The position numbers and the translations under genes are program-made. Positions 7,287 to 34,463 of a stretch of 34,683 nt of DNA are shown in pieces (position 1 is the first letter of the stretch; every line of letters begins with the position of its first letter). The stretch comes from an uncultured Ruminococcus sp. Its GTDB lineage: Bacteria; Bacillota; Clostridia; Oscillospirales; Ruminococcaceae. Below the pieces are notes generated by a model that made no database searches, was not told the origin of the DNA, and saw only the letters and a program-made list of their open reading frames with translations. The stretch covers positions 1 through 34,683 of the forward strand of contig ONAI01000011.1 of assembly GCA_900315755.1 (NCBI GenBank), in the 5' to 3' direction.

Positions 7287-7928
7287 ATGTCTAAGAACAC
7301 GATTTCAAATTCAGTTATACGCAGATTACCTCGTTATTACAGGTTTCTCGGCGAGCTTGAAGCAAATGGATATGTCAGGATCTCATCACGCGAGCTCTCT
7401 GAAAAAATGGGACTTACAGCTTCGCAGATAAGACAGGATTTTAATTGCTTCGGTGAGTTTGGCCAACAAGGTTACGGATATAATGTAAGTGACCTGAGAG
7501 GGGAGATCGGCAAAATACTTGGTCTCGACTGCCAGACACCAATGATACTTATAGGTGCAGGTAATCTTGGAAAAGCTATATCATGTCATCTTGATTTCAA
7601 GAGCAAAGGCTTTGATCTCATAGGAGCATTTGATGTCAATCCGGAGATCATCGGACACAGCATCGGTGATATTACAGTTGAGGATATGTCAGGTTTAACG
7701 GAATTCTGCAATAAGAACAAGCCGATCGCTGCAATACTCTGCGTTCCGACATCTGCGGCATCAAGTGTAGCAGAACAGCTTATATCACTCGGTATCAAGG
7801 CGTTCTGGAACTTCACTCATTTTGACCTCAGAATGGAACACACAGACGTACTTGTTGAAAACGTTCATCTTGGCGACAGTCTGACCACATTATCATATGG
7901 ACTCAACACAAGAATGGATACTGAATAA
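7287..7928 (+). CDS. rex: Redox-sensing transcriptional repressor Rex
   Basis: Rex is a homodimeric repressor that leaves DNA when NADH rises relative to NAD+. The 213 residues contain the N-terminal winged helix (about 1-80, with the ISSRELSEKMGLTASQIRQD recognition region) and a Rossmann domain with GAGNLGKA (about residue 92). A C-terminal domain-swap helix is expected after LVENVHLGD. It is last in the acn-icd-rex operon, which carries a probable Rex site over its promoter. A second candidate site precedes the fumarase/Hdr-Flx/fumarate reductase operon immediately downstream. This context suggests that Rex sets the balance between oxidative and reductive C4/C6 acid metabolism; the targets are inference. 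Confidence 0.96.
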   Translation: MSKNTISNSVIRRLPRYYRFLGELEANGYVRISSRELSEKMGLTASQIRQDFNCFGEFGQQGYGYNVSDLRGEIGKILGLDCQTPMILIGAGNLGKAISCHLDFKSKGFDLIGAFDVNPEIIGHSIGDITVEDMSGLTEFCNKNKPIAAILCVPTSAASSVAEQLISLGIKAFWNFTHFDLRMEHTDVLVENVHLGDSLTTLSYGLNTRMDTE

Positions 7929-8273: not shown

Positions 8274-8291
8274 TTGTTAAGAATATATCAA
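8274..8291. promoter_or_regulatory. Candidate Rex operator upstream of fumarase operon
   Basis: TTGTTAAGAATATATCAA: the left half matches the Rex half-site perfectly (7/7) and the right half at 5 of 7, with the proper 4-bp spacer. It ends 29 bp before the -35 hexamer of the operon. This is weaker than the site at 3975-3992. Confidence 0.45.
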
Positions 8292-8349: not shown

Positions 8350-8416
8350 TATATTATAGGGCTGCATTATTTTTATGCAGTTACAAACACTAAAATTTAT
8401 CTGGGAGTGGATACGA

Positions 8417-9793
8417 ATGGATTACCGCATCGAACACGATTCTATGGGCGAAGTTAAAGTACCAGCCGACAAATACTGGGCTGCTCAGACAGAGAGAAGT
8501 CATGAGAATTTTCTCATTGGCGTCGGCATTGAAACTATGCCAAGAGAGATCACTCACGCCTTCGGAATTCTGAAAAAGGCTGCTGCAATCGCTAATCATG
8601 AACTCAAGCCTGAAAAAATGACTGATCAGAAGCTTGCTGCTATTTCACAGGCTTGTGACGAGGTCATCAGCGGTTCACTTAACGAGCATTTTCCGCTCGT
8701 AGTATGGCAGACCGGTAGCGGCACACAGTCTAATATGAACGCCAACGAAGTAATTGCCAACAGAGGCAACGAGATCGCAGGTGAACGTATCCTCCATCCG
8801 AATGATGATATAAACATGAGCCAGTCTTCAAATGATACATTTCCAACTGCCATGCACATTGCCGCAGTTATCGCTATCGAGGACAAGGTTCTTCCCGCTA
8901 TTGATACACTCATCTCTACTTTTAAGCGTCTTGAAGAAGAAAATGAAGGCATTGTAAAGAGCGGTCGTACTCACCTTCAGGATGCAACTCCTATAAAATT
9001 TTCTCAGGAGATCAGCGGCTGGAGAGCTTCACTTGAAAAAGACAGAAAAATGATCGCTGCTTCCTGCGAAGAGCTTAAAGAACTCGCTCTTGGCGGTACA
9101 GCAGTTGGTACAGGACTTAATGCTCCGGCAGGTTTTGCAGAAAAGTCCGCAGCTGCTATCAGCCAGCTTACAGGCAAGGATTTCGTAACTGCTCCAAACA
9201 AGTTCCACTCTCTCACCTCAAAAGACGAGATCGTATTTGCTCACGGCGCTCTAAAAGCGCTTGCAGCTGATATGATGAAGATCGCTAACGATGTAAGATG
9301 GCTCGCTTCCGGACCTCGCGACGGTCTTGGAGAGATATTCATCCCTGAGAATGAACCTGGTTCATCAATTATGCCCGGAAAGGTAAATCCGACACAGTGC
9401 GAACAGGTAACAATGGTCGCTGTACAGGTAATGGGCAACGATGTTGCAGTAGGTATGGCAGCTTCACAAGGTAACTTTGAACTCAACGTATTTATGCCGG
9501 TGTGTGCATACAATTTCCTTCAGTCAGCACGACTTCTTTCTGAATCTATAATCAGCTTCAATAAAAACTGTGCAGTTGGAATCAAAGCAAACAAAGAAAA
9601 AATGCACCACAACCTCTATAACTCGCTCATGCTCGTTACCGCACTCAATCCATACATCGGATATGAAAATGCTGCAAAAACTGCGAAAAAAGCTTACAAA
9701 GACAACATTTCACTTAAGGATGCCTGCGTAGAACTCGGATTCCTTACAGCTGAAAAATTCGATGAAGTTTTCCATCCAGAAAAAATGGCTTGA
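8417..9793 (+). CDS. fumC: Class II fumarate hydratase
   Basis: Fumarase C interconverts malate and fumarate without an iron-sulfur cluster. The ATG at 8417 is chosen because GGGAGTGG precedes it and the protein then begins MDYRIEHDSMGEVKVPADKY like other FumC proteins; the upstream ATG at 8375 would add 14 atypical residues. The 458-residue length is typical. Motifs are the TGSGTQSNMNANEV substrate region, SGRTHLQDATP, and the signature GSSIMPGKVNP with the catalytic serine loop. It is the first gene of a tightly packed operon ending in a fumarate reductase flavoprotein, so it most likely runs malate to fumarate as feed for that enzyme. Confidence 0.96.
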   Translation: MDYRIEHDSMGEVKVPADKYWAAQTERSHENFLIGVGIETMPREITHAFGILKKAAAIANHELKPEKMTDQKLAAISQACDEVISGSLNEHFPLVVWQTGSGTQSNMNANEVIANRGNEIAGERILHPNDDINMSQSSNDTFPTAMHIAAVIAIEDKVLPAIDTLISTFKRLEEENEGIVKSGRTHLQDATPIKFSQEISGWRASLEKDRKMIAASCEELKELALGGTAVGTGLNAPAGFAEKSAAAISQLTGKDFVTAPNKFHSLTSKDEIVFAHGALKALAADMMKIANDVRWLASGPRDGLGEIFIPENEPGSSIMPGKVNPTQCEQVTMVAVQVMGNDVAVGMAASQGNFELNVFMPVCAYNFLQSARLLSESIISFNKNCAVGIKANKEKMHHNLYNSLMLVTALNPYIGYENAAKTAKKAYKDNISLKDACVELGFLTAEKFDEVFHPEKMA

Positions 9794-9810: not shown

Positions 9811-10608
9811 ATGGAAACTTTTACATATTATCCCGGATGTACGCTCAGAACTAAGGCAAAGGATCTTGATGTTTATGCAAGATCCAGCGCACAAGCTCTT
9901 GGCATAAAATTAGAAGAGCCAGCCGACTGGCAGTGCTGCGGAGGTGCTTACACAACAGCTAAGGACGAGATCGCTACCAAGCTTTCTGCTGTAAGAACAC
10001 TTAACGCCGCAAAGGAGCTCGGACGTCCCCTCGTAACTGTATGTTCCGCCTGTCATAATGTCATAAAGCAGACTAACTATGACATCTCAAATGATGAGGA
10101 TATGGCAGCAAAGGTCAATAATTACCTCGGACTTGCTGAACCTTACAGCGGCGAGACTACTGTTTATCACTATCTCGAACTCCTTCGTGATGTAATCGGA
10201 TTCGATGAACTTGCAAAGAAGGTAACAAATCCTCTTAAGGGCAAAAAGATCGCAGCATACTACGGATGTCTGCTGCTTCGTCCGTCAAAGGCTATGGCTA
10301 TGGACGATCCTGAGAATCCAACCATTATGGAAAACTTCATAAAAGCTATCGGTGCAGAGCCTGTCATTTATGCACAGAGAAATGAATGCTGCGGCGGCTA
10401 CATCACTCTCGAGGATAAGTCTCAGGCTGCTAAACGCAGCAATGCTGTAATGAACTCAGCAAAGGATCAGGGGGCAGATATGGTGATAACAGCCTGTCCG
10501 CTCTGTCTATACAATCTCAAAAAGAATTCAGAAGTTGATCTTCCCGTATACTATTTCACAGAACTGCTCGCCGAGGCTCTCGGACTGAAGGAGGCAAGCA
10601 ATGAATAA
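9811..10608 (+). CDS. hdrB: Heterodisulfide reductase subunit B-like protein (HdrB)
   Basis: HdrB proteins carry two noncubane [4Fe-4S] clusters in CCG domains and act as the catalytic thiol/disulfide or electron-exit subunit of Hdr complexes. Both CCG motifs are complete: C10, C42-C43, C78, C81 and C153, C193-C194, C229, C232. The 265 residues fit the family. The start has AAAGGAAAG upstream, and the end overlaps hdrC by 8 bp. The organism is not a methanogen, so CoM-S-S-CoB is not expected. In this operon HdrB could hand electrons to the fumarate reductase genes seven genes downstream, or use an unknown disulfide. Its physiological acceptor is unknown. Confidence 0.9.
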   Translation: METFTYYPGCTLRTKAKDLDVYARSSAQALGIKLEEPADWQCCGGAYTTAKDEIATKLSAVRTLNAAKELGRPLVTVCSACHNVIKQTNYDISNDEDMAAKVNNYLGLAEPYSGETTVYHYLELLRDVIGFDELAKKVTNPLKGKKIAAYYGCLLLRPSKAMAMDDPENPTIMENFIKAIGAEPVIYAQRNECCGGYITLEDKSQAAKRSNAVMNSAKDQGADMVITACPLCLYNLKKNSEVDLPVYYFTELLAEALGLKEASNE

Positions 10609-10984
10609 AAACCTGAAAGAACAAGTGCTGCGTTCAAGCGGTGTCAACGTACTTAAATGTATGCGCTGCGGAAAATGCTCCGGAACGTGTCCTTCTTATG
10701 ACGAGATGGAATACCATCCGCATCAGTTTGTTTACATGGTAGAAAAAGGCGATATTGAAACCCTTATGAATTCAAAGTCGCTCTATAAATGTCTTACCTG
10801 CTTTGCCTGCGTTGACAGATGCCCGCGAAACGTAGAACCTGCAAAGGTCGTTGAAGCAGTAAGACTTGCAGCTGTAAGAATGCAGGACAATAACCACCTG
10901 AGTCCGGACCAGATACCGGCTATGCTTGATGATGAACTTCCTCAGCAGGCTATCGTTACCGCACTCAGAAAGTATGCAAAGTAA
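10601..10984 (+). CDS. hdrC: Heterodisulfide reductase subunit C-like protein (HdrC)
   Basis: A small ferredoxin-like subunit linking HdrA to HdrB. The 127 residues hold two [4Fe-4S] motifs: C20, C23, C26, C30 and C64, C67, C70, C74, the last followed by the typical Pro. AAGGAGG gives a strong ribosome-binding site inside the end of hdrB. The gene is a soluble HdrC, without the membrane cytochrome type. It lies between hdrB and hdrA, giving the order B-C-A rather than the A-B-C order often seen. Confidence 0.9.
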   Translation: MNKNLKEQVLRSSGVNVLKCMRCGKCSGTCPSYDEMEYHPHQFVYMVEKGDIETLMNSKSLYKCLTCFACVDRCPRNVEPAKVVEAVRLAAVRMQDNNHLSPDQIPAMLDDELPQQAIVTALRKYAK

Positions 10985-10999
10985 GGAGGTCTGACACAA

Positions 11000-12991
11000 A
11001 TGCAGAGAATAGGCGTATTTGTCTGTCACTGCGGTACTAATATCGCCGCAACGGTAGACGTAAAAACTGTTGCTGAGACTCTCGGTCACGAAGCCGGAGT
11101 AGTCATCTCTCAGGATTATCAGTATATGTGTTCTGAATCCGGTCAGAACCTTGTAAAAAATGCAATAAAGGAGCATAACCTCACAGGTATAGTGATCTGT
11201 TCATGCTCACCGCGTATGCACGAGAATACATTCAGAAAAGCAGCTGCTGCTGCCGGACTTAACCCGTATCTCGTTGAGATCGCAAACATCCGCGAACAGT
11301 GCTCATGGATACATAAGGACATTGCTACTGCAACTGATAAGGCAATAATCCTTGGACGTGCCGCTATTGCTAAGGTACACCTCAATGCACCTCTTATAGC
11401 AGGTGAAAGTCCGGTTGCAAAAAGAGCTCTCGTCATCGGTGGCGGTATTGCAGGTATCCAGACAGCTCTCGATATAGCAGAAGCAGGATTCGATGTTGAC
11501 ATCGTAGAAAAACAGCCTACTATCGGCGGTAAAATGGCACAGATCGACAAGACTTTCCCGACTCTTGACTGCGCCGCTTGCATTCTCACACCTAAAATGG
11601 TAGAGGCTTCACAGAATGAACATATAACTATACATTCATTCAGCGAAGTAACAGATGTCAAGGGATTCGTCGGCAACTTCACAGTAACCATAAAGAAGAA
11701 GGCTCGCTTCGTTGATGAGACCAAGTGTACCGGCTGCGGACTCTGTACAGAGAAATGTCCGATGAAGAAAGTACCTAATGAATTCAATATGGGGCTTGAT
11801 AACAGAAGCGCCGTTTATATCCCATTTGCACAGGCTGTTCCAAAGGTAGCTACAATTGATCCGAATTACTGCATGATGCTGAAAACAGGCAAATGCGGCG
11901 TATGTTCAAAGGTTTGTTCTGTTGGCGCTATCGACTATAAGCAGCAGGATAGGTTTATTGAGGAAAAATATGGTGCTATCGTAGTTGCAACAGGCTTCAA
12001 TCCTATAAACCTTGATAAGTATGATGAATTCGCATATAATCAGTGCCCGGACGTTGTAACTTCCCTCGAGCTTGAAAGACTGATGAATGCTGCCGGACCT
12101 AACGGCGGTACTCTTCTTCGTCCTTCTGATAAAACACATCCGCACACCATTGTATTTGTACAGTGCGTAGGTTCAAGATGTGACGACAGTAAGGGAAAGC
12201 CATACTGCTCAAAGATCTGTTGTATGTACACAGCTAAACACGCAATGCTCATCCGCGAGAAGTATCCTGATACCGAGGTATATGTATTCTATATTGACGT
12301 CCGTACTCCCGGAAAGAACTTTGATGAATTCTACCGCCGTGCAGTTGAACAGTACAATGTTCACTATATAAAGGGCATGGTAGGAAAAGTTACCCCGAAA
12401 TCAGACGGAAAGATTGATGTACAGGCATCTGACCTGCTTGCAAATGAACAGCTTCACATAAACGCTGATATGGTAGTGCTCGCAGCGGCTATCGAACCGG
12501 ACAAGACTGCACGTCCGCTTGCAACGATGCTCACAACACAGATGGATACAAATGATTTCTTCACAGAAGCTCATCCGAAGCTTCGTCCGGTTGAGAGCGC
12601 AACTGCCGGAATATTCCTCTCAGGCGCTTGTCAAGGCCCTAAGGACATCCCTGAAACTGTTGCACAGGCAAGTGCAGCAGCTGCAAAGGCTATCGGCCTT
12701 CTCTGTAAGAACAGCATCACCTGCAACCCATGTGTTGCTCATTCAGATGAACTCATGTGCAATGGCTGTTCATCATGCGAAAAGGTTTGTCCATACGGCG
12801 CAATAACATACATCGACAAGGAATTCAGAATGCCTGACCGCACAACTAAGGTGCGCAGAGTTGCAAGTGTCAATCCTGCTGTATGTCAGGGATGCGGTGC
12901 TTGTACAGTAGCTTGTCCGTCGGGCGCAATGGACCTCAACGGCTTCTCTAACAGTCAGATCATGGCGGAGGTAGACGCGATATGCAAGTAA
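11000..12991 (+). CDS. hdrA: Heterodisulfide reductase subunit A-like flavoprotein (HdrA)
   Basis: HdrA carries the FAD thought to perform flavin-based electron bifurcation in soluble Hdr complexes. In the 663 residues I see an N-terminal domain with conserved CHCG, an FAD Rossmann motif GGGIAG (147-152), and the HdrA-specific cysteines C191/C194 in DCAACILTPKM. An inserted ferredoxin motif follows (C243, C246, C249, C253), then a Cys-rich segment CVGSRCDDSKGKPYCSKICC. Two C-terminal [4Fe-4S] motifs come last (CNGCSSCEKVCP and CQGCGACTVACP). AGGAGGT precedes the ATG. The stop overlaps flxD by 10 bp, indicating translational coupling. The full set of cofactor motifs argues for a working bifurcating-type subunit; whether it bifurcates here is inference. 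Confidence 0.92.
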   Translation: MQRIGVFVCHCGTNIAATVDVKTVAETLGHEAGVVISQDYQYMCSESGQNLVKNAIKEHNLTGIVICSCSPRMHENTFRKAAAAAGLNPYLVEIANIREQCSWIHKDIATATDKAIILGRAAIAKVHLNAPLIAGESPVAKRALVIGGGIAGIQTALDIAEAGFDVDIVEKQPTIGGKMAQIDKTFPTLDCAACILTPKMVEASQNEHITIHSFSEVTDVKGFVGNFTVTIKKKARFVDETKCTGCGLCTEKCPMKKVPNEFNMGLDNRSAVYIPFAQAVPKVATIDPNYCMMLKTGKCGVCSKVCSVGAIDYKQQDRFIEEKYGAIVVATGFNPINLDKYDEFAYNQCPDVVTSLELERLMNAAGPNGGTLLRPSDKTHPHTIVFVQCVGSRCDDSKGKPYCSKICCMYTAKHAMLIREKYPDTEVYVFYIDVRTPGKNFDEFYRRAVEQYNVHYIKGMVGKVTPKSDGKIDVQASDLLANEQLHINADMVVLAAAIEPDKTARPLATMLTTQMDTNDFFTEAHPKLRPVESATAGIFLSGACQGPKDIPETVAQASAAAAKAIGLLCKNSITCNPCVAHSDELMCNGCSSCEKVCPYGAITYIDKEFRMPDRTTKVRRVASVNPAVCQGCGACTVACPSGAMDLNGFSNSQIMAEVDAICK

Positions 12992-13428
12992 ATGATAATA
13001 AAGAATTTCAGCCGCTGATCGTTGCTTTCTGCTGCAACTGGTGTTCGTATGCAGGAGCTGATCTCTCCGGCACAAACAGGCTTAATTACCCGACAAATGT
13101 AAAGATCATCAGAGTGCCCTGTTCATGCAGAGTAAATCCGATGTTCATACTCAGAGCTTTCCAGCGCGGCGCTGACGGAGTGATACTCTGCGGCTGCCAT
13201 CCGGGTGACTGCCACTATACATCCGGAAACTACTTCACCAGAAGAAGAATGACTCTTCTGTTCAGTATGCTTGATTTCCTCGGAATCGAAAGAGACCGCA
13301 CAAGAGTTGAATGGGTATCAGCAGCTGAAGGTGCAAAATTTGCAGCTACTATGAATGAATTCACTGAGGCCGTAAGAAAACTCGGCCCTAACCGCAGACT
13401 GGAGGATCTGAGATGCAGGAAGCAATGA
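12982..13428 (+). CDS. flxD: MvhD/FlxD-like [2Fe-2S] electron-transfer subunit
   Basis: MvhD-family proteins shuttle electrons from a hydrogenase, formate dehydrogenase or NADH module into HdrA. The 148 residues show the family pattern: FCCNWCSYAGAD at the N-terminus, RVPCSCRV, and LCGCHPGDCHY, together supplying the [2Fe-2S] ligands. It overlaps hdrA by 10 bp and the next gene by 16 bp. No hydrogenase gene is nearby; instead Flx-type NADH oxidoreductase genes follow, so the donor is probably NADH through FlxA-C. Equivalent to the mvhD-like FlxD of bacterial Flx-Hdr clusters. Confidence 0.88.
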   Translation: MQVNDNKEFQPLIVAFCCNWCSYAGADLSGTNRLNYPTNVKIIRVPCSCRVNPMFILRAFQRGADGVILCGCHPGDCHYTSGNYFTRRRMTLLFSMLDFLGIERDRTRVEWVSAAEGAKFAATMNEFTEAVRKLGPNRRLEDLRCRKQ

Positions 13429-14384
13429 TAAACAGAGCCAAACAGCTCCTTGCCGACGGTACTGTTAAACGTGTTATCGGCTGGAAGCGCGGCGAATTTG
13501 CATATGATATAACTCCGGCTGTATTTGAAACTGCCGAAGAACTTGATAAGGACTTCGTTTTTGATGATTTCACATCTGCAAACGTATCTAAGTATCTCGT
13601 AAAGGAAAGCCAGAAGGAAGGCAAAGTTCTTGCATTCCTCAAGCCATGTGACACTTACAGCCTTAATCAGCTTACAAAGGAACATCGTGTAAACCGCGAT
13701 AATATTTACGTTATCGGCGTTCCCGGAGGTCCTAAGCTTGATGTTGAAAAGATCAAGGCAAAAGGCATAACAGGCATCACAAATCTCAGAAATGAGAACT
13801 ACACAATAAAGATAGAAACTATCTACGGTGAGGAAACTATGCCGTTCTATGAGGCTATACTTGATAAGTGCGCTTCATGTAAGAGCAAGAAGCACGTAAC
13901 TTATGATGAACTCATCGGTGAGGATGGAGATGTCCTCGAATCCAACCGTTTTGATATGGTAGAGAAGCTTGAAAACATGACCTCTCAGGAGAGATATGAC
14001 TTCTGGAGAGGCGAGCTCTCAAAGTGCATCAGATGCAATGCGTGCAGAAATGTATGTCCAGCCTGCACCTGCGAGAACTGTGTATTCGATAACCCGAAGT
14101 CCGGCATCGACAACAAAGCTCCTGCCGACAGCTTCGAGGAGAATATGTTCCACATCATCCGTGCATTCCACGTTGCCGGAAGATGTACAGACTGCGGTGA
14201 ATGTTCAAGAGTATGTCCTCAGCATATCCCGCTTCACCTCCTCAACAGAAAATTCATCAAGGACATCAACTCACTTTACGGTGAATATCAGGCAGGCGAG
14301 GATATAACATCCCGCGCACCGCTTACTGATTACACAGCTGATGACTGCGAGGCAAGCATAGTTCACGAAAGGGGTGTTGAGTAA
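13413..14384 (+). CDS. flxC: FlxC-like iron-sulfur protein (FrhB/sulfhydrogenase-beta related)
   Basis: An iron-sulfur subunit of an Flx-type NADH oxidoreductase. The 323 residues have an N-terminal domain resembling coenzyme F420 hydrogenase beta subunits (AFLKPCDTYSL, then KCASCKSKKH). Two C-terminal ferredoxin motifs follow: CIRCNACRNVCPACTCENC and CTDCGECSRVCP. GGAGG lies at 13401-13405, giving a clear start at 13413. It overlaps both neighbours (16 bp and 1 bp). The split of the names FlxB and FlxC between this and the next gene follows operon order and size only and could be reversed. Confidence 0.78.
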   Translation: MQEAMINRAKQLLADGTVKRVIGWKRGEFAYDITPAVFETAEELDKDFVFDDFTSANVSKYLVKESQKEGKVLAFLKPCDTYSLNQLTKEHRVNRDNIYVIGVPGGPKLDVEKIKAKGITGITNLRNENYTIKIETIYGEETMPFYEAILDKCASCKSKKHVTYDELIGEDGDVLESNRFDMVEKLENMTSQERYDFWRGELSKCIRCNACRNVCPACTCENCVFDNPKSGIDNKAPADSFEENMFHIIRAFHVAGRCTDCGECSRVCPQHIPLHLLNRKFIKDINSLYGEYQAGEDITSRAPLTDYTADDCEASIVHERGVE

Positions 14385-15403
14385 TGCTGAGAATCGCTTT
14401 TGATAAGTTAGACGAGCTTTTTGCAGCTGTCTCCGCTAAAAACACTCTCTATATCCCGACAAACCGTGAAGACGGCGAGGCTGAATATAAAAAGTATGAG
14501 CCTGGTATGAAGCTTACCTACAATCTCAATACACTCAGAAGTGCAAAGGATTTCTTCTTCCCACAGACCGAAGACCTTGTTGAGTTCAAAATGGAAGGCA
14601 AGAACATCGAAGTTAAGGACATCCGTAAGGAATCCGAAGATTTTGTAATTTTCGGTGTACGCCCCTGCGATGCAAGAAGCTTCACTATACTTGATAAAGT
14701 ATACCTCGTTGATCCGGTAGACAGCTACTACAAAAACCGCCGCGACCACGGAACAGTAGTTTCATTAGCCTGCACAAGACCTGCTGAGACCTGCTTCTGT
14801 CAGACATTTGGCATTGATCCTACTGCTCCCGAAGGAGACTGCGCTTGCTGGAGCGACGGCAGATACTACTATTTCAAAGCAAATACAGAAAAGGGAACAG
14901 CATTCCTTGATTCTATCGCTTCACTGCTTGAAGACGGCGACACAGCTGAGCTCGACAAGGCTATCGAAAGAACAAAGACAATAATGTCAAAGCTGCCGCT
15001 TGCAAAGCTTTCAACTGAAAACTTTGGCGGAGACAAACTCAACGAGTATTTCAATTCTGATAAATGGGCTGAACTCTCTGAAAGCTGCCTCGGCTGCGGA
15101 ACCTGTACCTTTGTATGTCCTACCTGTCAGTGCTATGACATTAAGGACTTCAATACCGGAAACGGCATCAAACGCTATCGCTGCTGGGATTCATGTATGT
15201 ATTCAGACTTTACAAAAATGGCTCACGGCAATCCGAGACTTACTCAGCTTGAACGCTTCCGCCAGAGATTCATGCATAAGCTTGTTTATTTCCCTGCAAA
15301 CAATAACGGTGAATTCGGCTGTGTAGGCTGCGGAAGATGTCTTTCAAAGTGTCCTATATCCATGAACATAGTCAAGGTCATGAAAGCATTGGAGGAAAAG
15401 TGA
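14384..15403 (+). CDS. flxB: FlxB-like iron-sulfur protein (sulfhydrogenase beta-subunit related)
   Basis: The 339-residue protein resembles the beta subunit of archaeal sulfhydrogenase/NAD(P)H oxidoreductases. It has an FGVRPCDARSF motif near residue 100, a Cys-rich CFCQTF...CACWSDG segment, and two ferredoxin motifs, CLGCGTCTFVCPTCQC and CVGCGRCLSKCP. It probably passes electrons between the FlxA flavin/[2Fe-2S] subunit and the Hdr part. Start and stop share single bases with the neighbours (TAATG at 14384, TGATG at 15403). It is a paralogue-like partner of the preceding gene, with the same two-motif C-terminus. Confidence 0.8.
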   Translation: MLRIAFDKLDELFAAVSAKNTLYIPTNREDGEAEYKKYEPGMKLTYNLNTLRSAKDFFFPQTEDLVEFKMEGKNIEVKDIRKESEDFVIFGVRPCDARSFTILDKVYLVDPVDSYYKNRRDHGTVVSLACTRPAETCFCQTFGIDPTAPEGDCACWSDGRYYYFKANTEKGTAFLDSIASLLEDGDTAELDKAIERTKTIMSKLPLAKLSTENFGGDKLNEYFNSDKWAELSESCLGCGTCTFVCPTCQCYDIKDFNTGNGIKRYRCWDSCMYSDFTKMAHGNPRLTQLERFRQRFMHKLVYFPANNNGEFGCVGCGRCLSKCPISMNIVKVMKALEEK

Positions 15404-16233
15404 TGAACAGTAACGATACATTGATACCTTATGTCGGCATTGTTACCGATATTCGTATAGATACTCCGGATGTAAAGACATTCCGCGTAGAAGCTCCGGA
15501 GGGCGGCAAGGTCTTTGAGCATATGCCCGGACAGTGTGCGATGCTTTCTATCCCTGGAGTAGGGGAGGCAATGTTTTCTATAACGTCTTCACCTACAAAT
15601 AAGGATTATATGGAATTCAGCATCAAGAAATGCGGCTGCCTGACTTCATGGCTTCATGCTATGGATGTTGGACAGATGATCACACTCAGAGGACCTTACG
15701 GAAACGCTTTCCCTGTTGAGACTGAACTCAAAGGCAAGGACCTCCTGTTCATTGCAGGCGGTATCGGACTTGCACCGCTCCGCTCAGTTATCCATTACGT
15801 AAGGGATAAGCGCGAGAATTACGGAAGCATTCAGGTAATATACGGCTCACGTTCAAAGGACGATCTCGTTGACTATCAGGAGATCATAGACGAATGGATG
15901 GCTGATGACGGCGTTGAAGTCAACCTCACGATAGATAATGCACAGGAAGGCTGGGACGGTCATGTCGGATTCGTTCCAAACTATGTAAAGGAGCTTAATC
16001 CTTCTACAAATAAGACCGTCCTTGTATGCGGACCTCCGATCATGATCAAATTCACTCTCGCTGGACTTAAAGAGATCGGCTTCACAGAAACTCAGGTCTA
16101 TACAACTATGGAACTTCGCATGAAATGCGGCGTAGGCAAGTGCGGACGCTGCAATATCGGAAACAAATACGTCTGCAAGGACGGACCGGTATTTCGTTTT
16201 GATCAGCTCGATGAACTTCCGGACGAATATTGA
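15403..16233 (+). CDS. flxA: FlxA-like FAD/NAD(P)-binding oxidoreductase subunit
   Basis: This subunit should oxidise NAD(P)H at FAD and feed electrons into FlxB/C. The start at 15403 is favoured because GGAGG lies just before it in a TGATG stop/start, giving 276 residues; the longer in-frame start at 15337 would lie inside flxB. The order is a ferredoxin-NADP-reductase-like FAD domain (GQCAMLSIPGVGEAMFSITSS), an NAD(P) domain (FIAGGIGLAPLRSVIHY, CGPPIM), and a C-terminal [2Fe-2S] motif CGVGKCGRCNIG...C like that of PyrK and sulfhydrogenase gamma. Flx-Hdr complexes of sulfate reducers and fermenters use the same subunit for NADH. Confidence 0.88.
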   Translation: MNSNDTLIPYVGIVTDIRIDTPDVKTFRVEAPEGGKVFEHMPGQCAMLSIPGVGEAMFSITSSPTNKDYMEFSIKKCGCLTSWLHAMDVGQMITLRGPYGNAFPVETELKGKDLLFIAGGIGLAPLRSVIHYVRDKRENYGSIQVIYGSRSKDDLVDYQEIIDEWMADDGVEVNLTIDNAQEGWDGHVGFVPNYVKELNPSTNKTVLVCGPPIMIKFTLAGLKEIGFTETQVYTTMELRMKCGVGKCGRCNIGNKYVCKDGPVFRFDQLDELPDEY

Positions 16234-16250
16234 TAACAGGAGGAGCAATA

Positions 16251-16934
16251 ATGGAAAATATGATAGATGTTTACCTGTTTGGTAAGAAATACAGCGTACC
16301 TGCCGGACTTACAATAATGACAGCTATGGAATATGCAGGCTACGAACTGGTAAGAGGATGCGGCTGCCGCAACGGTTTCTGCGGTGCCTGCGCTACTATT
16401 TACAGAATAAAGGGTGAATCACAGCTTCACGGATGTCTTGCCTGCCAGACAGAGGTACAGGAAAATATGTATGTTGCTACACTTCCTTTCTTCCCGCTTG
16501 AAAAGAAGATATACAACATTGAAGACATAAAACCGGATCAGCAGGTAATGATGCAGCTTTATCCTGAGATATATGCCTGCGTAGGCTGTAACGCCTGCAC
16601 AAAGGCTTGTACACAGGAACTTAACGTAATGCAGTATATCGCCTATGCTCAGCGCGGTGAATATGACAAGTGTGCTGAAGAAAGCTTCGACTGCGTAATG
16701 TGCGGTGTATGTTCATCACGCTGTCCAGCCGGTATCTCACATCCTCAGGTAGCAATGCTCGCAAGACGTCTCAACGGAAAGTACATCGCTCCTGAATGCA
16801 GACACCTCAACGACAGGGTAAATGAAATCAACGAAGGTATCTTCGATGAAAAGATCGCTGAACTCATGGCAAAATCCGTTGACGATATTGAAGAGATCAA
16901 GGCTATGTATAACAACCGTGAGATCGAGAAGTAA
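16251..16934 (+). CDS. Iron-sulfur protein of soluble fumarate reductase (FrdB/TfrB N-terminal-like)
   Basis: The 227-residue protein starts at the ATG behind AGGAGG (16239-16244); a TTG 21 bp earlier is less likely. An N-terminal plant-type [2Fe-2S] domain has C39, C44, C47 and C62. Two closely spaced [4Fe-4S] motifs follow (C110, C113, C116, C120 and C138, C141, C144, C148). That second half looks like HdrC rather than classic FrdB, which has one [4Fe-4S] and one [3Fe-4S] cluster. The arrangement matches the front part of methanogen thiol:fumarate reductase subunit B, whose back part is HdrB-like and is here a separate gene (hdrB). It is followed after 15 bp by the flavoprotein, its likely partner. 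Confidence 0.8.
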   Translation: MENMIDVYLFGKKYSVPAGLTIMTAMEYAGYELVRGCGCRNGFCGACATIYRIKGESQLHGCLACQTEVQENMYVATLPFFPLEKKIYNIEDIKPDQQVMMQLYPEIYACVGCNACTKACTQELNVMQYIAYAQRGEYDKCAEESFDCVMCGVCSSRCPAGISHPQVAMLARRLNGKYIAPECRHLNDRVNEINEGIFDEKIAELMAKSVDDIEEIKAMYNNREIEK

Positions 16935-16949
16935 GGGAGGGGAGAAGTT

Positions 16950-18554
16950 ATGTACAAAATCGAAAAACTCAACGAACTTGCAAAGGTAGTTGCTGCAAAA
17001 AGAGCAGAAAACGCTGCACTTGAGCCAAGAAGAATGACTGCCGAAGAGAAGGATGAGCTTCTCGCTTCATTCCACCCTGACTATAAAAAAGACGAATTCA
17101 CTGTACTTTCAGCCGGCGTAAACAAAGGTGAGAAAGTACCGACTCAGCTCGCTGAACTTCTTCAGGGTAAGAGCCGTATCAGCGCATCAGACGTTGATCT
17201 CAGCACTCCTGACTATGATACAGACGTACTTATAATCGGCGGCGGCGGTGCAGGTGCATCCGCAGCTATCGAAGCTGATGAAGCAGGCGTAAAAGCGATG
17301 ATCGTTACAAAGCTCCGTATCGGCGATGCCAACACAATGATGGCAGAGGGCGGTATACAGGCAGCAGATAAGCCGAACGATTCACCGGCTATCCACTATA
17401 TCGACGCTTTCGGCGGCGGACACTTCGCTGCAAAGCCTGAACTTGTAAAGAAGCTTGTAACAAAAGCTCCGGAAGCTATACAGTGGCTCAATAAGCTCGG
17501 AGTTGAATTTGACAAAGAGCCTGACGGTACTATGGTAACAACTCACGGCGGCGGTACATCACGCAAGCGTATGCACGCTGCAAAGGACTATTCCGGCGCT
17601 GAAATAATGAGAACACTCCGTGATGAAGTGCTCAACCGCGGTATACCGGTAATTGACTTCACAGCAGCCGTTGAGATAATCCTTGACAAGGACGGAAAGG
17701 CTGCCGGAGCTGTACTTATGAATATGGAGACAAAGCAGCTTCTCGTTGCAAGAGCTAAGACAGTTATCATCGCTACCGGCGGTGCAGGAAGACTTCACTA
17801 TCAGGGATTCCCGACATCAAACCACTACGGCGCAACTGCTGATGGTCTTATCCTCGGTTACAGAGTAGGCGCAAGACTTCTTTACGCTGATACACTTCAG
17901 TATCATCCAACAGGCACAGGCTATCCTGAGCAGATATTCGGTGCACTCGTTACCGAAAAGGTACGTTCACTCGGTGCAAAGCTTATCAATATAGACGGCG
18001 ATGTATTCATGCATCCGCTTGAAACTCGTGATGTAACAGCTGCTTCTATCATACGTGAATGTACAGAACGCAATAAGGGAATCGAAACCTCGCTCGGAAA
18101 AGCTGTATGGCTCGATACACCAATGATCGAGTATAAAAACGGTGAAGGCACTATCGAGAAACGTATACCTGCAATGATGAGAATGTTTGGCAAGTATGGC
18201 ATCGACATCCGTAAAGAACCGATCCTCGTATATCCAACTCTCCATTACCAGAACGGAGGACTTAACATCTCTGAGGACTGCTCAACAGATATTGCCAATC
18301 TTTATGCAGCCGGCGAAGTCGCAGGCGGTATCCACGGCAGAAACAGACTTATGGGCAACTCTCTCCTTGATGTTATCGTATTCGGCAGAAACGCAGGTAT
18401 AAATGCTGCCGCAAAGGCAAAGGAGACCGCAGAGCCTTCCGGACTTACTCTTGAGCATATTGAGAAGTTCAATAAGGAACTCTCAGACGCAGGAGTACAG
18501 AATGAAACAGCTTCACCAATGCTGCTTCCGCACTACGCAAGAAAAACAAAATAA
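16950..18554 (+). CDS. Fumarate reductase flavoprotein subunit (soluble, TfrA/FrdA-like)
   Basis: Predicted to reduce fumarate to succinate. The 534 residues start behind GGGAGGGG. About 90 N-terminal residues of no recognisable domain precede the FAD motif IIGGGGAGASAA (97-102). Family catalytic segments are present: HGGGTSRKR, QYHPTGTGY, the Arg in ETRDVTAASI, HYQNGG, and RLMGNSLLDVIVFGRNAG. Where SdhA/FrdA have the FAD-linking His of the SHT motif, this protein has N128 (GDANTMMAEGG), so FAD should be non-covalent. The C-terminal helical domain of SdhA is missing, and no membrane anchor subunit lies nearby, so a quinone partner is unlikely. L-aspartate oxidase is excluded by the iron-sulfur partner gene and context. 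Confidence 0.86.
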   Translation: MYKIEKLNELAKVVAAKRAENAALEPRRMTAEEKDELLASFHPDYKKDEFTVLSAGVNKGEKVPTQLAELLQGKSRISASDVDLSTPDYDTDVLIIGGGGAGASAAIEADEAGVKAMIVTKLRIGDANTMMAEGGIQAADKPNDSPAIHYIDAFGGGHFAAKPELVKKLVTKAPEAIQWLNKLGVEFDKEPDGTMVTTHGGGTSRKRMHAAKDYSGAEIMRTLRDEVLNRGIPVIDFTAAVEIILDKDGKAAGAVLMNMETKQLLVARAKTVIIATGGAGRLHYQGFPTSNHYGATADGLILGYRVGARLLYADTLQYHPTGTGYPEQIFGALVTEKVRSLGAKLINIDGDVFMHPLETRDVTAASIIRECTERNKGIETSLGKAVWLDTPMIEYKNGEGTIEKRIPAMMRMFGKYGIDIRKEPILVYPTLHYQNGGLNISEDCSTDIANLYAAGEVAGGIHGRNRLMGNSLLDVIVFGRNAGINAAAKAKETAEPSGLTLEHIEKFNKELSDAGVQNETASPMLLPHYARKTK

Positions 18555-18558
18555 ACAG

Positions 18559-18583
18559 CAATAGGACGCGCTGCGTCCTATTG
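18559..18583 (+). terminator. Hairpin between fumarate reductase and carrier genes
   Basis: A perfect 11-bp stem (18559-18569 with 18573-18583) with a 3-nt loop lies 4 bp after the flavoprotein stop codon. The next bases are TCGTGTTAAT, without a T run. It may be a partial terminator or an mRNA 3'-end stabiliser that lowers carrier expression relative to the enzyme genes. Confidence 0.5.
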
Positions 18584-18618: not shown

Positions 18619-19824
18619 ATGGAATTATTCAATGGTATCCTGTCTATAAACGGAACCGCTTTCCTGATTTTTTCAGTAATTCTCGTAGCTGCAATCGGCT
18701 ATATTTTAGGAAGAATTACTATCAAGGGCGTTTCACTCGGAACAGCCGGAGTATTTCTGATCGCCCTCGTTTACGGTGGAGTATTCTATGACAGACTTTC
18801 AGATGAAATGAACGCAAGCTTTGTAAAGAGTTCGCTCTCGATCATTGATACACTCGGACTTGTACTGTTCGTTTCAGCAGTAGGCTTTATAGCCGGACCG
18901 AATTTCTTCAGTAATTTCAAGAAGAATTTCAAATCATTCGTTACACTTGCAATGATAGTAATAGTCAGCGGTGGACTTGCTTGCATAGGATGTATGCTTA
19001 TAGGAAGAAACTTCACAAATCTCGACAATGATGAATTCACCGCACTCATGGCAGGACTTCTCTCAGGCGCACTCACAAGTACCCCTGGACTATCAGCAGC
19101 AAAAGAAGCGGCTGGACATAACCTTGAGGACGCAGTTGCAGTAGGTTCAGGAATTGCCTATATCTTTGGCGTTATCGGCGTTGTGCTCTTTGTTCAGCTT
19201 ATGCCAAAGCTTCTCAAGGCGGACATGGAAAAGGAACGTCAGCTGCTCAAATCAGCAAGTTCAGAAGTAAAGAATAAAAATTCGGATAAAAAGCTAATCG
19301 AAATGGATAGCTTCGGACTTATGCCTTTCGCACTTGCAGCCGGAATCGGTATTCTTATCGGTTCATTCAAGTTCAAGAATTTTTCACTTTCAACCACAGG
19401 TGGCTGTCTGCTCGTTTGCCTTGTATTCGGTCACTTCGGACGTGTTGCCAATATCAATTTCATGCCAAAGGATTCAACATTGAAAGTTCTCCGTGAACTC
19501 GGACTTATGCTCTTCCTTATTGGTTCGGGAATTAAAGGCGGTGCAAAATTCGTTGAATACTTCAAGCCAATATACTTTGTATACGGAATGATAATGACAA
19601 TCGTGCCGATGGTTATCGGATTCTTGTTTGCAAAGTACGTATTGAAGCTGAATCTGCTTAACAACCTTGGTTCTATCACAGGCGGTATGACTTCAACACC
19701 TGCACTTGGTACACTCATAACAACCGCAGGTACAGACGATGTTGCCGCCGCATATGCCGCAACATATCCTATTGCACTTATCTCAGTTGTTCTGACAGAG
19801 CAATTCATAATAATGCTGTTCTGA
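18619..19824 (+). CDS. AspT/SucE-family (AAE) membrane carrier, possible succinate exporter
   Basis: The 401-residue integral membrane protein has two homologous hydrophobic halves, typical of the aspartate:alanine exchanger family (YidE/YbjL duplication). Each half carries a Gly/Ser/Thr-Pro re-entrant-like stretch: GLLSGALTSTPGLSAA and GSITGGMTSTPALGTL. A charged linker of about 30 residues joins them. Most relatives are about 540-560 residues and have two RCK_C domains between the halves; these are absent here. The family includes succinate exporter SucE1 of Corynebacterium glutamicum and AspT. Lying 64 bp behind the fumarate reductase genes, it is likely to export succinate or exchange C4 acids; the substrate is inference. 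The ribosome-binding site is weak. Confidence 0.82.
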   Translation: MELFNGILSINGTAFLIFSVILVAAIGYILGRITIKGVSLGTAGVFLIALVYGGVFYDRLSDEMNASFVKSSLSIIDTLGLVLFVSAVGFIAGPNFFSNFKKNFKSFVTLAMIVIVSGGLACIGCMLIGRNFTNLDNDEFTALMAGLLSGALTSTPGLSAAKEAAGHNLEDAVAVGSGIAYIFGVIGVVLFVQLMPKLLKADMEKERQLLKSASSEVKNKNSDKKLIEMDSFGLMPFALAAGIGILIGSFKFKNFSLSTTGGCLLVCLVFGHFGRVANINFMPKDSTLKVLRELGLMLFLIGSGIKGGAKFVEYFKPIYFVYGMIMTIVPMVIGFLFAKYVLKLNLLNNLGSITGGMTSTPALGTLITTAGTDDVAAAYAATYPIALISVVLTEQFIIMLF

Positions 19825-32249: not shown

Positions 32250-33887
32250 TCAGCCGCCGAAATACAGTATTCTCCACTGATAATCTGTGTTTTTGCATAA
32301 TACGAAATATCCAGGTTCTGTTGAACCGTTATCATAGCCGGTTTGAGCTTTATAGGTATCGCCGTCAACATCAACTTTAGCTGTATCAGAATAATTATCG
32401 ACATAGATATTGAGTATCTCAGGATCATGCAGCATTTTCACATAATCAATACTGTTAAAATCATTGTCATTGGTATTAGTCAGTAAATACAGCTTGCCAT
32501 TATGCTGGATATAACGTGAAATATTAAGTTCATCATCATTGAACTGTTTCATCTCAAATTCATGACCATCGGGATACGCACTCCAGTCAGACGTAAGAGA
32601 TGGAGAATTGTGACTTTCATTCAGGCATGAATAATCCAGTTTTGTAAGCATGACGCTCGTTATATCATTAATGGATTTGAATCTGTCACTTTTAACCTTC
32701 GTGTATTCAAGTCTTATAGAATCAGACTGCTTATCACCGTTGATCTTAAATGAGATCTTGTCATTGTTATCAACTGCAACTCCGATACCTCTGAACAGAT
32801 TATAAACAGTTGCATAGCCATTAAACAACTGATTGATCTCCTGAATATCCTCTGCCGTAGCATCTCCGGAAGAAGTGCTGCTGTTCGGATCCTTAGGCTG
32901 GGAATTTGATGTAACATTACCGATGCGCCAATCTCCTGCAGCATTATCCCAAACAATGTTGAACGTCATATTTCCCGGCGAATCAGGTATCTGAGAATGA
33001 TAAATCCAAGTAGCAGTAATGCTGTTAGCATCCGCATCATATTCACCTGAGATCAGGATAGTATCTCCGAAATTAGGTCCTACTATGCCAGCTGTCACAT
33101 AGAGTTCGCCGTTATATTTCAGATATGCTGGAAATTCTTCACTCTTTATTTGCATAGAATCAAGCTCTTCTGTCAAATCACCGCCGTATACTTTATTATA
33201 CAGCTCATCAGCATGATCTTTTATCAGAGTATTTTCAATAGATTTTCTGATATTCTCAGGGTCAGAATAGACAGCATCAGTAACTTTGTAATACTCCATG
33301 AAGCTATTATCGTCGAACTGCGAAGTGTAATAAAAAGCCTTAATGTTACTGTCATGGTCAATAATATCACGCGTATAGCAAACTCTGAACATTGTAATGT
33401 AGTTGTTTACAAGTTCATTTGCAATAACGTCAGCGTCGATATTATCTTTGTTTACATTATTTGTAACTATCTCATTTTCAGAAACAGCTGTCGTAACATT
33501 TTCCGACACTGACTGAGTTGTTATTCTGCTCTCATCAGAAGTAGTTTCAGTTACAATTGCAGAGGCATTCTGCGATGTAGTATGCTTCGGATCAGATTTA
33601 GACATACTCCTGCCAAGTGCAAGACTTCCGCCTATACCGCCTGCAAGGAGCAGGAATGCTGCTGCAACCGCAGCATATTTGCTCCATATAGGTCTGTTGC
33701 AGCGTTCCACGCCTCTGACTTCTTCACTGAATTCATCTTCGTATCCTTTATTTATATTGTACTTTCTTTCACTCATAGCAAACATCCTGTCTTTTTCTTC
33801 TTCTGTTAGGATGGGGTAATTTGATGCTATACTATTGATGGTCTCATCATCAGGATCATCAAAAATATTGATTCTGTTTTTATTCAT
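32250..33887 (-). CDS. Membrane protein, probable anti-sigma factor and extracytoplasmic sensor
   Basis: 545 residues: an acidic cytoplasmic N-terminus (1-69), one membrane helix (about 70-92, YAAVAAAFLLLAGGIGGSLAL), a Ser/Thr-rich linker (to about 150), then a large outer region. The outer region appears to be two related domains of about 170 residues. Each has a hydrophilic tyrosine strand (AYLKYNGELYVTAG and RYIQHNGKLYLLTN) and ends in an FxxxxxxxxxxWRI strand (FNIVWDNAAGDWRIGNV and FVLCKNTDYQWRILYFGG). It lies 12 bp behind an ECF sigma factor gene, the usual arrangement for a cognate anti-sigma factor. No zinc-binding HxxxCxxC motif is present. The signal sensed is unknown. No RsgI-type carbohydrate-binding module is recognised. 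Confidence 0.72.
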   Translation of the reverse strand: MNKNRINIFDDPDDETINSIASNYPILTEEEKDRMFAMSERKYNINKGYEDEFSEEVRGVERCNRPIWSKYAAVAAAFLLLAGGIGGSLALGRSMSKSDPKHTTSQNASAIVTETTSDESRITTQSVSENVTTAVSENEIVTNNVNKDNIDADVIANELVNNYITMFRVCYTRDIIDHDSNIKAFYYTSQFDDNSFMEYYKVTDAVYSDPENIRKSIENTLIKDHADELYNKVYGGDLTEELDSMQIKSEEFPAYLKYNGELYVTAGIVGPNFGDTILISGEYDADANSITATWIYHSQIPDSPGNMTFNIVWDNAAGDWRIGNVTSNSQPKDPNSSTSSGDATAEDIQEINQLFNGYATVYNLFRGIGVAVDNNDKISFKINGDKQSDSIRLEYTKVKSDRFKSINDITSVMLTKLDYSCLNESHNSPSLTSDWSAYPDGHEFEMKQFNDDELNISRYIQHNGKLYLLTNTNDNDFNSIDYVKMLHDPEILNIYVDNYSDTAKVDVDGDTYKAQTGYDNGSTEPGYFVLCKNTDYQWRILYFGG

Positions 33888-33899
33888 CTCTGCACCTCC

Positions 33900-34463
33900 T
33901 TAATAACTGATACCGGATTCAAGCAGCAACGACCGCAGTTTTTCTCTTGCACGGCTGCTGCGCTTCTGTACATTTCCGGCTGTAAGTGAAACTGTTTTTG
34001 CGATCTCTTTAGCAGTTCTGTTGTAGAAATACTGTTGAATTATAATAGTTGAGTCAGGCTCTCCGAGTTCACTGATCTTACGCATAATTATACGATTCCG
34101 GTCACGATTCTCAGCATAGACATCAATTCTTTCATCAGACTGCGGTTCACGAAAATCATCGTCATCAATTGAAACTGATCTTCCATATCTAACCAAAAGT
34201 CTTCTGAAAGCGTCGATAGCTCTTCTTTTAGCAATTACACCTATAACCGGCTTGATATTTCCGTTTGTATCATTATCTTCCAAAAAACGGTAAACATCGG
34301 CAAAAACATCGCTGACACATTCTTCAATGTCCTCACGGCTGCCGCAGCTTCTCAGTTTACCGGCTGCGATAGCATAAACATAGTTACAGTATTCATCAAA
34401 CAACGCTCTTCTGCCCTTATCAGGAGATTGTTCAAGCAGTATACTTATCTCGTTATCAGTCAT
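33900..34463 (-). CDS. ECF-type RNA polymerase sigma factor
   Basis: 187 residues with sigma region 2 (about 10-90: ALFDEYCNYVYAIAAGKL, DIEECVSDVFADVYRFL, IGVIAKRRAIDAFRR) and region 4 (about 125-180: QYFYNRTAKEIAKTVSLTAGNVQKRSSRAREKLRSLL). Regions 1 and 3 are absent, as in ECF sigma factors. The linker (YGRSVSIDDDDFREPQSDER) is acidic. AGGGGTGAT precedes the ATG. It is co-transcribed with the downstream membrane protein, its likely inhibitor. The sequence upstream (34464-34589) shows no sigma-A promoter I would trust. Confidence 0.92.
   Translation of the reverse strand: MTDNEISILLEQSPDKGRRALFDEYCNYVYAIAAGKLRSCGSREDIEECVSDVFADVYRFLEDNDTNGNIKPVIGVIAKRRAIDAFRRLLVRYGRSVSIDDDDFREPQSDERIDVYAENRDRNRIIMRKISELGEPDSTIIIQQYFYNRTAKEIAKTVSLTAGNVQKRSSRAREKLRSLLLESGISY

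Follow-up and report, generated by a model that had tools for sequence, protein, structure and literature searches.

The 'succinate operon' of Pseudoclostridium thermosuccinogenes comprises genes for a fumarate hydratase, an Flx-Hdr complex (CDQ83_RS03360-30), a fumarate reductase (RS03325-20) and a possible succinate transporter, and a coupling of fumarate reduction to ferredoxin reduction is already proposed for it in the part of the source covered (PMC7282089). Judged by the gene list in that text, its gene content and order match those of a cluster in a 34,683-nucleotide stretch of DNA (the window; contig ONAI01000011.1 of assembly GCA_900315755.1) from an uncultured Ruminococcus sp. of the Ruminococcaceae, although the host here is a rumen Ruminococcus and belongs to another lineage. 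The cluster is a tight block of ten genes on the + strand, in the order fumC-hdrB-hdrC-hdrA-flxD-flxC-flxB-flxA-frdB-frdA. It probably lets a rumen Ruminococcus make succinate from fumarate with NADH, with energy saved as reduced ferredoxin. On balance, we favour reading the block as the genes of a soluble NADH:fumarate/ferredoxin oxidoreductase that needs no quinone.

The P. thermosuccinogenes operon is reported to rise in expression about 4-fold when CO2 is limiting, a change that is not significant for every subunit, and headspace H2 is reported nearly to abolish succinate formation (PMC7282089, same part). Because the coupling hypothesis is in print there, the central idea is not new. The present analysis adds a reading of FrdB and HdrB as a split TfrB, and the presence of a [NiFe] hydrogenase in place of the NADH module in three metagenome-assembled genomes (MAGs). 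Searching the literature by title and start of abstract, with most subscription journals outside the coverage, we found no biochemical test of the coupling and no description of it in Ruminococcus or with a hydrogenase. The part of PMC7325909 covered describes an actinobacterium with hdrA-mvhD-metVF-hdrCB and with frdAB lacking membrane subunits, and does not say that these are joined. Within the parts covered, PMC12542636 has 'frdAB' and 'mvhADG' with no description of a linkage, and PMC9751042 has nothing on Hdr.

Other known enzymes resemble portions of the block. All seven subunits of FlxABCD-HdrABC from Desulfovibrio vulgaris are present with the expected domains, but in the window they adjoin fumC and frdBA. 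The D. vulgaris complex is tied to ethanol metabolism by the title of its description (Ramos et al. 2015), and the title of a paper cited in PMC5861303 (Meyer et al. 2014) links fumarate reduction, Hdr-Flox and Rnf in Desulfovibrio alaskensis. The likeness to methanogen thiol:fumarate reductase (TfrAB) lies in FrdA, whose top NCBIfam match is TfrA, and in FrdB and HdrB, which match parts of TfrB. However, TfrB is one chain, whereas here frdB and hdrB are separate genes, HdrA, HdrC and Flx are added, and all scores fall under the TfrA and TfrB cut-offs (349.1 bits against 718 for TfrA). An HdrB-like partner also stands beside a fumarate reductase in 8-methylmenaquinol:fumarate reductase (SdhABE), whose SdhE is the top NCBIfam match of our HdrB; the score is 151.7 bits against a cut-off of 500, close to the 140.9 bits of plain HdrB, and unlike SdhE this HdrB occurs with HdrA, HdrC and Flx. 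Methanogen MvhADG-HdrABC shares the HdrA/B/C hub and the MvhD-type FlxD, but the donor module here is for NADH and not a hydrogenase. Quinol:fumarate reductase FrdABCD (E. coli, Wolinella) shares the catalytic fold and residues of FrdA. A membrane-bound enzyme of that kind was rejected, as no anchor gene occurs among the scanned neighbours; moreover, FrdA gave no match to the C-terminal helical domain, and the flavin attachment and FrdB cysteines described below differ.

A first-pass annotation of the window had listed the nine genes from hdrB to frdA with fumC ahead of them. All were found at the expected place and strand, with the expected families:

8375..9793, + strand: fumC, class II fumarate hydratase (TIGR00979, 703 bits against a cut-off of 664.75)
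9811..10608, + strand: hdrB, two CCG domains (PF02754 in two stretches)
10601..10984, + strand: hdrC, two [4Fe-4S] clusters (TIGR03290 match)
11000..12991, + strand: hdrA, FAD/[4Fe-4S] subunit (NF040770, 798.3 bits, under the cut-off of 1100; this profile also spans a FlxD part)
12982..13428, + strand: flxD, MvhD/FlpD-type [2Fe-2S] protein (PF02662, 186.5 bits)
13413..14384, + strand: flxC, two [4Fe-4S] clusters (Fer4_8)
14384..15403, + strand: flxB, sulfhydrogenase-beta-like Fe-S protein (PF17179, Fer4_22, 106.7 bits; NF040829, ShyB-like, under cut-off)
15403..16233, + strand: flxA, NAD(P)H-oxidising FAD protein with DHODB-type [2Fe-2S] (PF00175, PF00970, PF10418)
16251..16934, + strand: frdB, [2Fe-2S] and HdrC-like two-[4Fe-4S] domain (Fer2_4 and dicluster)
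16950..18554, + strand: frdA, FAD fumarate reductase flavoprotein (PF00890, FAD_binding_2, 242 bits)

The close packing described earlier (overlaps of 1-16 bases, gaps of at most 17) holds with flxA starting at ATG 15403, which has GGAGG 5' of it and overlaps the flxB stop by one base, and frdB at ATG 16251, which has AGGAGG 5' of it and follows flxA after 17 bases. Both starts were set by ribosome-site context; the mechanical list of open reading frames (ORFs) has 15337 and 16230. The end of fumC is likewise 17 bases from hdrB.

Subunits and the predicted electron path

In the mechanism we propose, fumC would supply fumarate and FlxA would take electrons from NADH. FlxB and FlxC would relay these to FlxD, which would dock the donor module to HdrA, and then to the FAD of HdrA. 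At this FAD, the presumed bifurcation site, each pair would be divided, one electron going to ferredoxin (Fd) and its partner reaching the noncubane HdrB clusters by way of HdrC. As exit of the high-potential branch, HdrB would pass electrons to FrdB with no disulfide substrate needed, and the [2Fe-2S]/2x[4Fe-4S] chain of FrdB would deliver them to the FAD of FrdA, reducing fumarate to succinate. The net reaction would be 2 NADH + fumarate + Fd(ox) -> 2 NAD+ + succinate + Fd(red), and the reduced ferredoxin could drive Rnf or a hydrogenase. We infer complex formation, the path HdrC-HdrB-FrdB-FrdA, the direction and, from HdrA homology only, bifurcation.

The potential of ferredoxin is -420 mV. 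Combining this value with the E0' of fumarate (+33 mV) and of NAD (-320 mV; PMC5861303, part covered) gives about -49 kJ/mol for the net reaction by our own arithmetic, and NADH at -280 mV with ferredoxin at -500 mV (PMC9304861, part covered) gives about -18 kJ/mol. The bifurcating reaction is thus thermodynamically feasible under both sets of potentials.

The Flx-Hdr set is complete in one operon: HdrA, HdrB with two CCG domains, HdrC, FlxD, the NAD/FAD protein FlxA, FlxB and FlxC. Conservation was counted in aligned rows (90-91 for Hdr and Flx proteins, 165 for FrdB, 167 for FrdA), and it agrees with the earlier claim that cluster and flavin motifs are intact, since the motif cysteines and the FrdA active-site residues are present. 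HdrA aligns over its full length and end to end with methanogen HdrA 5odc_A (E 8.7e-209), which we take to bifurcate; most of its cysteines are invariant and a few vary. The eight cysteines of HdrC and the cluster-motif cysteines of FlxC are invariant in 91/91 rows. All ten CCG cluster cysteines of HdrB are kept (90/90 or 91/91 rows), so both noncubane clusters should be present, and HdrB is predicted to hold two noncubane [4Fe-4S] sites. The solved chains that it matched are HdrB of methanogens. The SdhE and TfrB profile matches give precedents for an HdrB-like subunit beside a fumarate reductase, and we count the fact that SdhE is such a subunit in favour of the coupled enzyme.

Six FrdA residues that we take to be the E. 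coli FrdA catalytic set for dicarboxylates (H319, E336, R339, R360, H432 and R466) are invariant in 167/167 rows. Asn128, equally invariant, occupies the position of the SdhA histidine that presumably forms the covalent flavin link, so the FAD should be non-covalent. Non-covalent FAD is usual in one-way fumarate reducers, and Asn at this position favours the reductive direction. The structural model of FrdA (pTM 0.80, mean pLDDT 72.8) has E. coli FrdA, 1kf6_A, as its top PDB match. FrdA carries an N-terminal extension (about 85 residues) that recurs in all 12 proteins aligned, some of which start a few residues later. L-aspartate oxidase (NadB) was rejected as an identity for FrdA: the score is 278.5 bits against a cut-off of 452.75, and THGGGTSRKR stands where NadB has REGGHS, whose Glu we take to be NadB-specific (E. 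coli Glu121). In two genomes of different families, FrdA is split in two frames at about residue 310 (L083 near 13855, L084 near 14073), which may be assembly error or decay.

FrdB has 12 cluster cysteines, invariant in 165/165 rows, and the last eight form two ferredoxin-type sets, so that there is no [3Fe-4S] pattern; the Pfam scan found no CCG domain match in it. Its model is of low confidence (pTM 0.46), which makes its fold matches weak, the top being HdrC 8rvu_C and the second E. coli FrdB 6awf_F. On the NCBIfam TfrB profile, FrdB matches positions 19-93 (38.8 bits) and HdrB positions 264-487 (41.1 bits), both under its cut-off. FrdB and HdrB together thus look like TfrB cut in two, and their matching of separate TfrB parts suggests a path HdrA-HdrC-HdrB-FrdB-FrdA.

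Distribution of the block and its donor modules

Within the order of the window's host, the genome comparison called for by the first-pass annotation gives near-perfect co-occurrence of Hdr and Frd. Of 295 genomes sampled evenly out of a larger group, 55 have FrdA (E <= 1e-90), 54 have HdrA (E <= 1e-100) and 52 have both (Fisher p 1.3e-51, a value that ignores relatedness). The two genomes with HdrA only are G096, whose HdrA is of a different type (46-48% identity), and G142, where hdr genes and flxD lie at a contig end. The three with FrdA only are G202, which is 77% complete and has the locus at a contig end (L085), and G179 and G286, considered below. In a sample of 398 genomes from the phylum, FrdA (39 genomes) again goes with HdrA (141 genomes), both occurring in 35, and HdrA is mostly found without FrdA. 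Many of the distant HdrA genes from this search carry one in-frame TGA, presumably as expected of selenocysteine-containing HdrA.

We classified 174 FrdA loci: the window, 54 from the order, 39 from the phylum and 80 from named organisms, the last being the best 80 of 442 candidates and leaning towards the window's kin. BLAST against the proteins of the window served to recognise the genes and may overlook distant relatives. All nine genes occur in 91 of these loci, the window included, over 8.2-9.1 kb, and 90 of the 91 have the window's gene order (in L149, hdrC precedes hdrB), which excludes chance for the cluster. By source, the complete loci are the window itself, 47/54 of the order, 1/39 of the phylum and 42/80 of the named set. 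Among the others, nine are Flx-type but cut or partial, one is otherwise Flx-type (L172, flxB not called as an ORF), 24 have HdrABC without flxA, six have HdrBC only, six have an HdrA-like protein or FlxD only, and 16 show no Hdr or Flx but are too short to tell; the remaining 21 are discussed below.

Complete loci also occur beyond the window's phylum, in five Spirochaetota (one an isolate, Treponema sp. Marseille-Q4130) and one Synergistota MAG. A contig of a horse MAG labelled Bacteroidaceae/Bacteroidota (L165) carries a complete operon as well; its label may be wrong. Pairwise distances of FrdA and HdrA correlate across the 91 loci (r = 0.83). In the 38 loci with all 11 genes, that is, with fumC (62/91 complete loci) and a permease (47/91), r is 0.67 for FrdA-HdrA, 0.33 for FrdA-permease and 0.06-0.33 for the permease against every other gene. 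Made without species-tree control, these correlations show no more than a closer common history among hdr, flx and frd than with the permease. We infer that the block was transferred between phyla.

In two Thermoplasmata MAGs (L213, L216) and one Anaerolineae MAG (L228), the order is hdrA-mvhD-mvhG-mvhA-hdrC-hdrB-frdB-frdA, so that hydrogenase genes are joined to hdrCB-frdBA. A third context is found in L120 and its kin, with hdrC-hdrB-hdrA, a 1092-aa double HdrA-like protein, flxD, a 471-aa protein and frdBA. The loci are:

L213:3034-11650, hydrogenase-type locus
L216:2926-11614, hydrogenase-type locus
L228:3039-11623, hydrogenase-type locus
L120:5173-13501, minus strand, third-context locus

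The hydrogenase large subunit has both NiFe motifs intact in all three MAGs, with VhuA as its top match (394.1, 369.5 and 393 bits for L213, L216 and L228; cut-off 800), and the small subunit has VhuG as its top match (205, 209.8 and 213.5 bits; cut-off 450). A gene for a hydrogenase maturation protease lies between mvhA and hdrC in L213 and L216 (TIGR00072, 78.2 and 87.2 bits; cut-off 47.45), and none was called at the L228 locus. These three loci are candidates for an H2-driven bifurcating fumarate reductase. Neither Pfam nor NCBIfam gave a match for the 471-aa protein of L120, which is flxC-like.

In several differing gene orders hdrCB adjoins frdBA. That hdrCB-frdBA is kept when the donor between FlxD/MvhD and HdrC is exchanged hints, more strongly than any other comparison, that electrons enter FrdBA through HdrBC. 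Tentatively, and with slightly more doubt than belief, we extend this to a general proposal, in which FrdBA with HdrBC (a split TfrB) would be a plug-in acceptor module for HdrA hubs. Its donors would be NADH through FlxABCD (gut Clostridia, Treponema, Synergistaceae), H2 through MvhADG (some Thermoplasmata and Anaerolineae) and, in L120 and its kin with their double-length HdrA, a further donor. Electron bifurcation to fumarate would then be widely distributed as a soluble substitute for quinol fumarate reduction, and would form the succinate route of R. flavefaciens.

Competing explanations

Several observations weigh against the coupled enzyme. HdrB keeps all ten cluster cysteines, as a genuine disulfide reductase would need too, and its top profile, SdhE, belongs to a quinol-linked enzyme. 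G179 and G286, both 99% complete, keep frdBA (as fumC-frdB-frdA in G286) without a match to HdrA at E <= 1e-100 or to HdrB at E <= 1e-5, so FrdBA can have another donor. No recognised Hdr or Flx gene accompanies frdBA in the 21 loci set aside above, each covered for 5 kb or more upstream and 2 kb or more downstream; in L211, one of the 21, a neighbour is distantly HdrB-like (27% identity over 177 residues). The neighbours of such lone frdBA genes include pyruvate carboxylase (L115), malic enzyme and a CoA-transferase (L116), and an FMN-binding Fe-S protein with a protein lacking a Pfam match (L142), and no common donor was found among these five scanned proteins. We also hand-picked twelve HdrA loci, four from the order (L247-L250) and eight outside it; the eight were selected for an HdrA far from frdA and are not a random sample. 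In all eight genomes outside the order, an Flx-Hdr-type operon is separate from frdBA (L241-L246, L251, L252). Six of these operons have the window's hdrB-hdrC-hdrA-flx order (L241-L246; flxA is off the contig in L242 and flxD not called in L243), and in the other two genomes, G545 and G338, a further hdrCB adjoins frdBA (L134, L139). As an argument against a role in the host animal, a metatranscriptome of gnotobiotic sheep is described, in the part of the source covered, as showing high fumarate reductase transcripts for an "F." organism. The first-pass annotation had treated routine separation of the Flx-Hdr and Frd parts in related genomes as telling against its proposal; this separation is found in part outside the order and twice within it (G179, G286). 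We read the window's operon as two older operons that appear to have been joined, and where the parts are separate they may work together in trans.

Much of this would suit two enzymes sharing one operon, which we consider unlikely but worth serious thought. Flx-Hdr would then bifurcate electrons from NADH to ferredoxin and, at HdrB, to the disulfide of either a thiol protein or a small thiol. FrdBA would be a separate soluble fumarate reductase fed by the dithiol or another carrier. The intact HdrB cysteines, the 21 lone loci and the eight genomes with separate operons all favour it, as does the term NADH dehydrogenase/heterodisulfide reductase given to D. vulgaris Flx-Hdr (Ramos et al. 2015, by title). 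Yet HdrA in the order is rarely found without frdA (52 of 54 genomes with HdrA have both), the whole block recurs in other phyla, FrdB has no CCG match for thiol oxidation, and hdrCB lies by frdBA in several gene orders, G545 and G338 among them. It is more doubtful still that the complex forms but does not bifurcate, with HdrA relaying both electrons to FrdBA and the potential difference wasted. Electron transfer from NADH to fumarate, at about -68 kJ/mol (own arithmetic, E0' from the part of PMC5861303 covered), is strongly downhill, and coupling is therefore not required; the full-length, end-to-end alignment of HdrA with 5odc_A and its mostly invariant cysteines argue the other way.

Two further alternatives seem very improbable. 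Because HdrA systems are reversible in principle, the block might run in reverse, oxidising succinate and reduced ferredoxin together to make NADH, but we give this hardly any credence: the host group makes succinate, fumC and a candidate exporter flank the block, and the Asn128 of FrdA should favour the reductive direction. Equally remote is a quinol link, in which HdrB would be an SdhE-type subunit and FrdBA with HdrB an SdhABE-type fumarate reductase. The first place of SdhE among the HdrB matches points that way, but its score is under the cut-off and near that of plain HdrB, and in each of the 91 complete loci hdrB is accompanied by hdrC and hdrA, in one order in 90. In addition, menD in the host genome scores 48.1 bits, under its cut-off (the futalosine route was not searched for), and the one UbiA-family prenyltransferase (38.5 bits against a Pfam cut-off of 34.2) is a partial 226-aa piece, PRK13592-like and under its NCBIfam cut-off. 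Classical menaquinone is unlikely in this host, to judge from the low menD score and this lone piece.

For the coupled NADH:fumarate/ferredoxin oxidoreductase, the proposal of the first-pass annotation that fumarate is the high-potential acceptor draws support from gene content, intact sites, co-occurrence in the order and feasible thermodynamics. On the other side, the idea was already in print and lone or separate frdBA exist. The interpretation is plausible and, within the order, better supported than the first-pass annotation could tell; it is neither new nor proven, and it does not hold throughout the FrdBA family.

Host, regulation and flanking genes

The window's genome (2.45 Mb) is 92% complete, so absences of genes are soft. 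Among the best 80 of 442 named candidates, the top relatives of its FrdA lie in L154 (Ruminococcus sp. RGIG8566, 93% identity) and L155 (R. flavefaciens FD-1, 91%), and the genome is close to R. flavefaciens, a known succinate producer. In FD-1 the nine genes are all present, 81-95% identical to those of the window. The start of its fumC matches in two pieces near 1454-1572 of L155, and the called ORF has 423 aa against 472 in the window, which may reflect a frame shift or another start site. R. flavefaciens is described as producing formate, acetate and succinate, and R. albus as producing formate, ethanol and acetate, to which some strains add a little succinate (PMC8865330, part covered); a table in the covered part of PMC9785684, its columns matched by content, agrees. 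The genome encodes RnfC (424.7 bits), [FeFe]-hydrogenase (four large matches and one short piece) and GTP-dependent phosphoenolpyruvate carboxykinase (PEPCK; 529 bits); no ATP-PEPCK was found in the 92% represented. The sole other FrdA match was rejected as a second FrdA: it is a NadB-like 406-aa piece whose top matches are L-aspartate oxidases (455.5 bits against a cut-off of 472).

The features flanking the block are:

7287..7928, + strand: rex, redox (NADH/NAD+) sensing repressor (PF06971, PF02629; NCBIfam Rex NF003990, 282.7 bits against a cut-off of 233)
8274..8291, + strand: Rex-box-like site with two mismatches to the consensus, about 100 bases 5' of fumC
18619..19824, + strand: AspT/YbjL-family permease (PF06826; TIGR01625, 141.2 bits against a cut-off of 71.95)

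The rex gene, 446 bases from fumC, is a possible regulator of the block. Rex-box-like sites 5' of a fumC adjoining rex are present in the window (8274-8291), L154, L155, L157 and L032, and suggest NADH-responsive control of the operon. On the window alone such sites are not significant (5 matches at <= 3 mismatches, 3.27 expected), nor are they at L155 alone; at <= 2 mismatches, 8 of 63 loci carry one against 0.2 expected (mononucleotide shuffle), a comparative form of support in which the eight loci represent few lineages and include all five tested loci of the window's genus group.

The permease, which was left out of the earlier nine-gene list, is a candidate dicarboxylate (succinate) exporter that seems loosely linked to the block. 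Between it and the frdA stop, directly after the latter, is a hairpin with perfect 11-bp arms (18559-18583), a possible partial terminator or processing site. Aconitase and NADP-isocitrate dehydrogenase genes lie 5' of the block in the window and are not counted as parts of it. Elsewhere in the window, on the minus strand, a 545-aa protein without a Pfam or NCBIfam match adjoins a sigma-70-family gene with regions 2 and 4 (32250-33887 and 33900-34463).

If the coupling proposed here is correct, rumen and gut bacteria akin to R. flavefaciens would conserve energy when they reduce fumarate, without quinones or a membrane enzyme, and each succinate would also yield reduced ferredoxin for Rnf or H2. 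The energy and hydrogen balances of rumen fibre fermentation and of succinate fermentation would change as a result. Cultured R. flavefaciens FD-1 would then be a direct test bed for a coupling that, in the literature covered, has so far been proposed from genes and transcripts only.

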